Both the position numbers and the translations under genes were made by a program. The notes under the pieces are model-generated. The model saw only the letters and a list, made by a program, of their open reading frames with translations. It ran no database searches and was not told the DNA's origin. DNA of 64,000 nt from Stieleria neptunia (GTDB lineage: Bacteria > Planctomycetota > Planctomycetia > Pirellulales > Pirellulaceae), in assembly GCF_007754155.1 (NCBI RefSeq), contig NZ_CP037423.1:8490938-8554937 (forward strand). Reading direction: 5' to 3'. Positions 12,858 to 14,735 of this stretch are shown here, piece after piece. Every line of letters begins with the position of its first letter. Positions within the stretch are counted from its first letter, which is position 1.

Positions 12858-12925
12858 GGCAGAATCATTCGGGGCAGAATAATGATTCAATCGAAGGCGG
12901 GGCAAAACAATGGGGGCAAAACAAT
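12858..12925. repeat. Degenerate 14-bp repeats, forward orientation (outer side of the intron's 3' end)
   Basis: Four imperfect copies on the plus strand: GGCAGAATCATTC, GGGGCAGAATAATG, GGGGCAAAACAATG and GGGGGCAAAACAATC. They are the reverse complement of the 14-bp unit at 13592-13678, so inverted arrays bracket the group II intron remnant. The rest of 12638-12959 holds no gene; a short GTAAGCTTCCAGCTTGC palindrome-like motif lies near 12719. Confidence 0.7.
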
Positions 12926-12959: not shown

Positions 12960-13499
12960 ATTGTCGCGGTAGGGACGGCTGTTGCCAGCCGCCCCCCGCA
13001 CAGATCCGTACATGAAGAACTACCTCATACGGCTCCTCCGTTGGGTCAAACGATCACAGCGCAGAACGTTGCAACCCGTCGTGATTTCCCGTGTTACTCT
13101 AATTGATGCTTGGCCCGACTCTGAGTCCGGAGCATCGGTAACAATTCGGCAATACTTCCCTTCAGTGAGATCCCTTCCCTCATCCGACTTCCCATCAGCG
13201 TTCATGTCAGCCGTACCCTCGGAAAGGTTAACTGACCGTCCTTGTGTTCGCCCGTGGGCGGACCAAGGAACTGTTGGGAGCTCCCGGTTCTCGCGTTTGG
13301 AATATCCACGCATGCACAGGTTCGCAGACTCCGCCGTGTTCCGTTGCGTCTCGCCGGAGATAACGACGCACCGGATGTTGTCTTCCCCATAGGCAGACAA
13401 GGTCGACACACGAGACTACATTGATTTCGGAGCTCTATTTCTGGCCTGCGTTTCCCTCCGGGGCGGACGCTCAGCAGGACGTTGTTACCGCGGTCGCAC
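12960..13499 (-). ncRNA. Group II intron remnant, ORF-less, probably inactive
   Basis: On the minus strand the segment starts GTGCGACC (13499), matching the 5' GUGYG rule, and ends in a domain V/VI-like pair. Domain V candidate: GAGCCGTATGAGG (13035-13023), short loop, CTTCATGTACGGATC (to about 13003). Domain VI candidate: a 10-bp stem with a GCAA loop (12995-12972), followed by CCCTACCGCGACAAT. In domain V the G of the AGC triad faces A instead of the usual U, and the loop is TAGTT rather than GNRA, so catalysis is doubtful. No reverse-transcriptase frame exists; the whole remnant is about 540 nt. The upstream exon side translates to MKVFYEKGLAYHFG, a peptide I recall as common before group II introns in related genomes. 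Borders are approximate. Confidence 0.62.
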
Positions 13500-13591
13500 C
13501 TCCGCTGGAGGCCGAAATGGTAGGCTAAACCTTTTTCGTAGAACACTTTCAATTCCTATTCCAAACCGGTTTTATCCCGGCACACCTGCCA

Positions 13592-13678
13592 CCCCATCGT
13601 TCTGCCCCCATCGTTCTGCCCCCATCGTTCTGCCCCCATCGTTCTGCCCCCATCGTTCTGCCCCCATCGTTCTGCCCA
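13592..13678. repeat. 14-bp tandem repeat, six copies
   Basis: CATCGTTCTGCCCC begins at 13595, 13609, 13623, 13637, 13651 and 13665, nearly without change. Its reverse complement GGGGCAGAACGATG matches the degenerate units at 12858-12925. The array ends 11 bp before the stop of the DUF6807 gene. Confidence 0.95.
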
Positions 13679-13688
13679 ACACCTTCTA

Positions 13689-14735
13689 CTACCGCATCCG
13701 CTCCACCTCATACTGCCGGTGCGGTTCCTCTTGATTCGGCTTGCGGATTCGAAACCCCGGACGATTCTCAAACGCTTCGTGAACCGATTCGGCGCGTTCC
13801 AGATCAACAGCTCCGGAATGGGCGTACAGCAGATAGCGAAGCACCAGCGGATTTTCATCGGTAATCTCGATCGCGGTCTTCATCCCGGGTGACGCCCCCA
13901 TCCAGCCGTCTTGGCGGACATGCCAATGCGTCGGAAAGCCGGGATTGCTCGGATGATCAAAATACGTGATCCCTTCTTCGACCAGCTTGCGTCCCCCAGC
14001 GGCCGGTACGGCGATCGGGCCGGAATAATCCATCCACCGTGACTGTTTCTCGTGCAGGCTCGGTTCGCCCTGAACACCGGCGTCGTTGGTCAATCGTCCG
14101 CCTCCGAAATAGGCGGACAGACTGGCGGCCACGCGGACGGCCAAAACGCCGAAATTGGTCTGCTCCAACGTCACCTTGCCTCTTCCCTCGCCCGGACGAA
14201 ACGTCAATTGAAACTCGACCGCGTGCTCGGCGGTTTCCGCGTCGTTCTCGATCCCCATCAACGCGACGACGACATCCTGTTGCATTCGCTCGACGCCCTC
14301 GCCGTCGATCCAGACCAGGTGCGTCGCCATGACGGCTTCATCATCCCCGTCACGGTAACGATACCAGTGGGTTTGTCGGATGACGGATCCGGTGCCGTCG
14401 GCCCAAAAATTCACGCCGTCGACTTTGTGGTGGGCAAACCAGACGGATCGATGGTGGTCATGATTCTGGGCGCCCGGGTGCCCCATCCGCGTCAACGTTT
14501 CTCCCGACGGTCCGTTGAACGGATAAAAAAACGGTCGCGGGTACTGTGGTCCATAGTGCCAACGCAGCTTTTCGCGACCATCGATTCGCAAGGAGACTTC
14601 ATGATTGGCCAGCGGCACGATCTCGCATCGGGGCGGATGATAATCCTGTGCGATCGCTGAACGTCCCAATCCACAGATCACCAGCACCATCCACAATCCG
14701 GCACCGCATCGATCACCCAACACACTACATTTCAT
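13689..14735 (-). CDS. Exported DUF6807 (PmoA-like) protein
   Basis: 348 aa with signal peptide (GLWMVLVICGLGRSAIAQ). Diagnostic stretches are FFYPFNGPSGETLTRMGHP, NHDHHRSVWFAHHKVDG and WADGTGSVIR, which characterise the PmoA/DUF6807 family common in planctomycetes. An AAAGGAGA lies 8 bases before the ATG. It follows the sulfatase by 16 bp on the same strand and is probably cotranscribed, so a joint role in handling sulfated polysaccharide or a linked sugar is likely. The enzymatic activity of the family is not established. Confidence 0.83.
   Translation of the reverse strand: MKCSVLGDRCGAGLWMVLVICGLGRSAIAQDYHPPRCEIVPLANHEVSLRIDGREKLRWHYGPQYPRPFFYPFNGPSGETLTRMGHPGAQNHDHHRSVWFAHHKVDGVNFWADGTGSVIRQTHWYRYRDGDDEAVMATHLVWIDGEGVERMQQDVVVALMGIENDAETAEHAVEFQLTFRPGEGRGKVTLEQTNFGVLAVRVAASLSAYFGGGRLTNDAGVQGEPSLHEKQSRWMDYSGPIAVPAAGGRKLVEEGITYFDHPSNPGFPTHWHVRQDGWMGASPGMKTAIEITDENPLVLRYLLYAHSGAVDLERAESVHEAFENRPGFRIRKPNQEEPHRQYEVERMR

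Follow-up and report, generated by a model that had tools for sequence, protein, structure and literature searches.

An ORF-less group II intron in tandem repeats of Stieleria neptunia and its probable mobilisation in trans

Main finding

The minus-strand element at positions 12963 to 13585 of the window, the 64,000-nt stretch of Stieleria neptunia DNA that was analysed, is very probably a group II intron of the D1D4-6 class, ORF-less but essentially complete, which belongs to a lasting non-autonomous family of the Pirellulaceae and is mobilised in trans by a reverse transcriptase (RT) of its class. The identity of the intron and its boundaries, the EBS1-IBS1 pairing, the exact insertion into a repeat, the near-identical copies and the conserved domain IV are read directly from the DNA, as are, in a genome of the same genus, a helper-type intron at this target and, in another genus, the 5'-truncated copies. 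Splicing, protein binding, helper action and movement of the ORF-less intron are what these features would imply, and the helper would have been lost from, or never have been resident in, the genome of the window. The original prediction of an ORF-less group II intron remnant is supported as to the ORF-less intron but not as to the remnant.

Identity and boundaries of the intron

A covariance search of the whole window gave a single match over threshold, to the family RF02005 (group II D1D4-6), which covers the domain I core at 13319 to 13549 on the minus strand with 133.6 bits (E 8.5e-38, cut-off 49) and is complete over model positions 1-225 of 225; the class of the intron is defined by this Rfam D1 family only. 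Under a relaxed threshold, the D5-D6 family RF00029 scores 38.0 bits at 12963-13037 (gathering score 40; E 1.8e-5 in a 1.7-kb search), and it stays 2 bits below the cut-off in all three copies of the genome. The minus-strand group II intron and the D5/D6 3' end near 12960 that had been predicted are thus both borne out by the Rfam check proposed with them, RF00029 lying just under its cut-off. The joint absence of a covariance match and of a full-length relative, named beforehand as the refuting outcome, did not occur.

The predicted GTGCGAC start (13493-13499) is part of GTGCGACCGCGG at 13488..13499 (-), a sequence within the RF02005 alignment and therefore inside D1, as the covariance model starts as early as 13549. 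The real 5' end, GTGTG at 13585, is fixed by the junction with the repeat, and the intron is 623 nt long instead of 540, with the termini 5' GTGTGCC and CCGCGAC 3'. Group II introns have the terminus consensus 5' GUGYG and 3' AY. The S. neptunia termini, again set by the junctions with the repeat, are GUGUG in the window copy and GUGCG in the two other copies, all with a 3' ..GAC, while the 5' end of RT-carrying relatives is often GAGUG rather than GUGYG. Domain VI (12966..12999, minus strand) has a GCAA loop and a candidate branch-point A at 12970, a bulged A which is kept in 12 of 12 aligned family sequences. Whole-intron minimum-energy folds, the other computation that had been proposed, are no better than shuffles (z -0.35 and -0.27).

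The predicted lack of an RT ORF was confirmed with Pfam and NCBIfam. Neither the open frame of 129 aa in the window copy nor that of 149 aa in the full copies has a Pfam match at E<=1; in NCBIfam, the 129-aa frame has two weak matches far below the cut-off (E 0.081 and 0.1) and the 149-aa frame has none. A protein-coding intron frame was rejected on these grounds, and the two frames look like read-through of a former pre-RT frame.

Upstream of the intron, the 5' exon consists of tandem 14-bp repeats, GGGGGCAGAACGAT, at 13592..13689 (-), with the outermost copy degenerate. Related 14-bp repeats of opposite orientation lie downstream at 12899..12925 (-), the arms being 85% complementary; in all, the oppositely oriented repeats flank the intron at 12871-12925 and 13592-13689. 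The intron and these repeats sit between a DUF6807 gene and an aldo/keto reductase gene.

EBS1-IBS1 pairing

The 5' exon ends in the IBS1 GGCAG at 13586..13590 (-), which is complementary to the CTGCC of the EBS1 loop TCTGCCTAT at 13389..13397 (-), a loop placed by RF02005 and by the scored pairing; EBS1 CUGCC and IBS1 pair at 5 of 6 positions. An EBS1 table could be drawn up for 26 of 32 introns tried (one had no 5' end and five had no EBS1 pattern), and 21 of the 26 were scored, leaving out four near-duplicates and the mis-picked L060. Over these introns with various loops and exons, 18 of the 21 form at least 5 of the 6 pairs in a single register, against 92 of 408 pairings at 5 or more of 6 in a control with swapped exons. 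None of 5000 permutations reached the observed sum, for a register that was chosen after seeing the pairing table and for related introns which are not independent of one another.

Copies in the genome and the repeat target

The S. neptunia genome (10,975,817 bases in one contig) holds three copies of the intron, and the original prediction had missed both the two further copies and a deletion in the copy of the window. The two full copies, at 4,255,174-4,255,856 (+) and 8,616,467-8,617,149 (-), are 683 nt long and identical although they lie 4.4 Mb apart. Compared with them, the window copy has lost 60 nt of domain IV, at the GATGAG direct repeats of 13184..13185 (-), and carries 11 substitutions elsewhere. 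In all three copies the 5' start GTGYGCC follows ...GATGGGGTGGCAG, and the 3' end CCGCGAC is followed by AATGA, beyond which the 3' exon of the window copy is degenerate.

Each 683-nt copy interrupts a 16-bp tandem repeat precisely at the junction of GGCAG with AATGATGG. Both exons of the full copies are units of this repeat, AATGATGGGGTGGCAG, and the empty site can therefore be read directly. The genome contains 114 occurrences of the junction 16-mer GGTGGCAGAATGATGG, 54 on the forward and 60 on the reverse strand, and none of its reversed control. Among the matches listed (about 100 of the 114), most of those below about 6.66 Mb are on the plus strand and most of those above 6.69 Mb on the minus strand, the exceptions being near 2.92, 3.72, 3.79, 5.43 and 5.63 Mb, as if the orientation of the 16-mer followed the replichore. 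Beside the 4.25-Mb copy, a VanZ-like frame (L009, 3830-5188) continues into the repeat array and is terminated by a stop codon that lies within the intron, and splicing would therefore alter its C terminus.

RT-carrying and ORF-less relatives

RF02005 has matches in 18 of 60 genomes examined, 15 of them over the cut-off and the window's own genome included. Many of these matches are RT-carrying introns, for example 11 copies in genome G011 and 4 in G024, in which the RT is located between D3 and D5; RT/maturase frames of 516-586 aa are present in G209, G005, G011, G057 and G024. The proposed search for a relative with an RT therefore succeeded in related genomes, though not in that of the window. 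Each of the eleven RT-carrying introns of G011 (L047-L057) lies behind a similar copy of the hairpin element CTCTCCCGC..GCGGGAGAG.

As a DNA query, the 683-nt intron found matches in 68 of the 241 family genomes and in 55 of the 396 order genomes, with two candidates scored per genome, so that copy numbers from these searches are lower bounds. ORF-less relatives were found in five genomes, G005, G204, G108, G109 and G152, which together with that of S. neptunia represent four genus codes, while the ORF-less introns of G040 and G114 have a different domain IV. In G002, which has the genus code of S. neptunia, a 91-nt match of 100% lies at a contig end and is followed by repeats. Places such as G188 C2:92737-92864, which matches query positions 556-682, may be further ORF-less introns. 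Two shorter relatives are L192 of G204, of about 460 nt and with much of D1 deleted, and L212 of G192, of about 370 nt, in which only positions 1-92 and 611-682 match.

The exact ORF-less domain IV/V pattern, a strict one which misses G152, was found in 13 stretches of named genome contigs from four genomes (Rhodopirellula solitaria CA85, Rhodopirellula sp. SM50 and the MAGs casp150-mb.46 and KLAP164), in a scan that possibly did not include the window's own genome; viral contigs gave 0 matches to it. The rows of the alignments used below were hand-picked from 80 fetched regions and the three S. neptunia copies; L207, truncated at a contig end, was included with the ORF-less introns, L067 was labelled unknown, and L219 and L220 were assigned to the RT-carrying type by RT-start-like sequence alone.

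Reverse transcriptases and the identity of the helper

No RT of the D1D4-6 class was found in the one-contig genome of S. neptunia. Its six places with TIGR04416 matches and six with RVT_1 matches belong to another group II RT, a retron-like RT (C1:1343825-1344487, in a 615-aa frame) and a Toprim domain/RT protein (C1:3151480-3151722, in a 987-aa frame). The group II RT of the other class is present in two copies and a third in two pieces. The two copies (L011 and L012, C1:9082105-9083091 and 9084118-9085104) are identical RT introns which lie in tandem 2,013 bp apart, and the third, at 1.43 Mb, is interrupted. It is possible that an RT of the right class resides on a plasmid which is missing from the assembly.

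This raises the question of whether the resident group II RT of the tandem pair near 9.08 Mb splices or mobilises the ORF-less intron in trans, across classes. It is the sole intact group II RT found in the genome, and G204, which also has ORF-less copies, contains RTs that are 60-61% identical to it. However, the resident RT shares only 29-30% identity with five full-length D1D4-6 RTs; among these five, that of G005 is 62-73% identical to the other four. The introns of the resident RT match the other D1 families RF02001 and RF01998. G005 moreover has an ORF-less intron, and the sole group II RT found there is of the D1D4-6 class. A cross-class helper is therefore rather improbable, even if it is the best placed of the alternatives.

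The case for a helper of the same class comes from G005, which has the same genus code as S. neptunia. Its ORF-less piece L184, of 384 nt, is 97% identical to the S. neptunia intron and ends at AATGATGGGGTGGCAG, and the RT-carrying intron of the same genome (524-aa frame, 368 bits) has this same 3' exon. Two further G005 pieces, L185 and L186, have 3' ends that match the S. neptunia D5-D6 at 100% and are followed by AATGATGG-type repeats, as with L184, and the 5' ends of L187 and L188 are preceded by GTGGCAGAATGATGGGGTGGCAG; L184 is the only piece that covers domain IV, and as L185-L188 are cut by contig ends, their assignment to the ORF-less or the RT type is not certain. The intron had been predicted to be either dead or dependent on a helper, and the helper half of this fares better, with an ORF-less and an RT-carrying intron in the same repeat of a same-genus genome. 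In G204 no intact class RT was found; it has a 393-aa class frame with an adjoining 181-aa frame, and a 425-aa frame beside a class-like D5.

Retrohoming or recombination

The identical copies in S. neptunia could also stem from recombination between repeat arrays. If copies had spread by recombination or gene conversion instead of retrohoming, any splicing would be unaided. All three copies lie in or beside repeat arrays that could recombine, and no class RT was found in the genome. On the other hand, the flanks outside the repeats differ among the three copies, EBS1 and IBS1 match in one register over introns with different targets, and 5'-truncated copies suggest reverse transcription. The latter are found in G204, where in 5 of 10 inspected loci unrelated DNA borders directly on an internal position of the ORF-less sequence while the 3' end is retained, a form which suggests incomplete reverse transcription; later deletions are possible as well. 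The flanks of the G005 and G002 sites, of which a few hundred bases were compared, share only short repeat-like matches with those of the three S. neptunia sites. Spread by recombination is thus unlikely, a little more so than a cross-class helper, and retrohoming with a class RT is preferred.

Domain IV

In S. neptunia, G005, G204, G108, G109 and G152, the RT is replaced by a domain IV that can be aligned over about 130 nt. It forms two hairpins, A at 13092..13144 (-) with three stacked helices and 17 pairs, and B at 13044..13089 (-), also with 17 pairs, both taken from the family alignment. Over these 34 pairs, 96.0% of the cells are paired, and 11 of the 34 have compensating changes on both sides. 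The covariation is 0.366 compared with 0.226 +/- 0.016 in shuffles (0 of 500 as high) and at most 0.092 in slid controls, yet the structure was derived from the tested alignment itself, so that the test favours it, and kinship of the sequences can also exceed shuffles. One measure points the other way, as shuffles have 30.3 further pair types and the family alignment has 24. The consensus fold of domains IV to VI mis-folds D5, and the structures of D5 and D6 were therefore written by hand.

A BLAST search of the RT-carrying loci found no counterpart of the ORF-less domain IV except a 26-nt stretch of 85% identity in the introns of G011 and G196. Among the loci compared, hairpin B is limited to the ORF-less introns. 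Hairpin A contains the 26-nt stretch that matches the G011 introns and resembles a hairpin found where the RT ORF begins in 12 RT-type introns; in each of the two hairpins, a 4-nt bulge on the 3' side separates two helices. By this resemblance, hairpin A is possibly a kept D4a protein-binding site, the counterpart of the RT-start hairpin.

Domain V and the question of decay

Domain V of the window copy (13003..13035, minus strand) has the 5'-strand AGC and the two-nucleotide bulge; the AGC faces a 3'-strand GAU. The mismatch that had been predicted opposite the triad is present as a G.A instead of the usual G.U, and the loop is indeed not GNRA. Both features belong to the class as a whole. The comparison covered 27 introns, 21 of which include a D5 piece, and the 3' strand CGGATC with the G.A facing the triad occurs in 20 of these 21, RT-carrying ones among them; the D5 loops of the class introns compared by eye are likewise non-GNRA. 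The D1-D5 spacing is of RT-carrying length in 11 of the 21 rows, with an RT family match for those of G011, G024, G057, G209, G204 and G211 (the last two as split frames), while the rows of G223, G196, G140 and G107 are classed by this spacing alone. As the odd domain V is class-wide, it is no sign of death or decay, and the deviation should not be read as such when RF00029 at its gathering score misses all three S. neptunia copies.

The main reading of the original prediction, that an old intron lost its RT and no longer splices, with the copies as fossils, is accordingly improbable. It would account for the lack of an RT in the intron, for the deletion and substitutions of the window copy and for a genome without a class RT. 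Against it stand the two identical full-length copies and the three copies of 98-100% identity, all in repeats and two exactly between repeat units, as well as the compensating changes which keep the domain IV pairs across genera and the class-wide D5. Furthermore, the D1 scores (133.6 bits in the window copy and 143.7 in its two sister copies) are like those of RT-carrying introns, which reach 143-155 bits in G011, G035 and G057 and about 134 at best in G024, with others lower; this too argues against a dead remnant.

Mosaic history of domain IV and scaffold

A tree of D1-D3 and D5-D6 was built from 26 of 27 rows, L061 having been dropped beforehand. The 8 ORF-less rows form no clade in it, and holding them together lowers lnL by 87.8 (p-AU 0.00046), so that a simple single lineage of ORF-less introns is rejected and domain IV and scaffold have different histories. 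The S. neptunia copies group with the RT-carrying intron of G209 (88/86, not starred) and the G204 copy falls with the intron of G198 (98/92, starred). Compared in identity windows, the ORF-less copy of G204 is 94-98% like the local RT-type intron over the first 150 nt, and its domain IV is 74-91% like that of S. neptunia. Independent ORF deletions in each genome, giving look-alike introns with no common domain IV history, would agree with the rejected clade and with the different domain IV of G040 and G114, but are improbable given a domain IV alignable over about 130 nt in six genomes and a hairpin B without BLAST counterpart in RT-carrying loci.

A domain IV swapped between scaffolds, or a D1-D3 homogenised by local RT-carrying introns, would explain this pattern. 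A more far-reaching proposal, which falls somewhat short of being probable, is that of a lasting cross-genus non-autonomous lineage whose compact domain IV module recombines between scaffolds, making these introns SINE-like parasites that home into intergenic repeats and can outlive their helpers. If this is true, the ORF-less intron of a genome could wear the D1-D3 of the local RT-carrying intron and yet keep its own domain IV.

A model of mobilisation in trans

Mobilisation by a class RT, the preferred reading, would proceed as follows. In domain IV, the RT gene has given way to a compact and conserved RNA of two hairpins, and one of these possibly retains D4a. The RT/maturase of an RT-carrying intron of the same class would bind the ORF-less RNA in trans and thereby support splicing and mobility. 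The resulting RNP would reverse-splice into intergenic repeats ending in GGCAG through EBS1-IBS1 pairing, and target-primed reverse transcription would complete the intron copy. A family that spans genera with a replacement domain IV, in a genome without a class RT, would mean that non-autonomous introns can persist and swap parts, which is a step assumed in models for the origin of the dependence of spliceosomal introns on a common machinery.

Comparison with known systems

Among the titles and abstract openings listed by the literature searches, none describes these introns in Planctomycetes. The rarity of ORF-less introns in bacteria, part of the original prediction, agrees with a review of 2015 (PMC4424553), while a later survey gives 281 of 2,381 introns in representative genomes as lacking an intron-encoded protein (IEP) (PMC8919778).

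Close relatives are RT-carrying D1D4-6 introns such as those of G011, G024, G209 and G005, with up to 80% identity in D1-D3 and 83-92% in D5-D6, the same D5 peculiarity and the same EBS1-IBS1 register; those of G011, G005 and G211 likewise lie in repeated elements. Unlike the intron of the window, they hold an RT/maturase between D3 and D5, and no hairpin B was found in them.

C.te.I1 of Clostridium tetani was described in 2015 as the only ORF-less intron known in bacteria whose genome lacks a related IEP gene (PMC4424553; PMC3919590), a situation that it shares with the S. neptunia intron. As these accounts present it, C.te.I1 is part of an alternatively spliced locus with demonstrated splicing, whereas the intron of the window has three dispersed copies, helper-type introns in related genomes and splicing that is predicted.

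The closest precedent, judging from its published description, is given by the TeI3 introns of Thermosynechococcus elongatus, which proliferated after one ORF deletion and are driven by TeI4 IEPs (PMC2882425). Both have lost the ORF from domain IV, occur in multiple copies, mostly outside genes and with good EBS/IBS pairing, have RT-carrying relatives as known or putative drivers and show covariation in a reduced domain IV (PMC2882425). TeI3 keeps D4a (PMC2882425), for which hairpin A is a possible equivalent predicted by resemblance in an intron known from its sequence. TeI3 is the family of one strain with its drivers in the same genome, whereas the ORF-less domain IV described here is common to several genera and no class driver was found in S. 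neptunia, the class RT being present in G005 of the same genus. Also unlike TeI3, the D1-D3 scaffold has a history different from that of domain IV, and the targets are short tandem repeats. This family therefore differs from the known ORF-less introns, as far as they are described in these sources, in having a domain IV common to several genera, a mosaic scaffold and repeats as targets.
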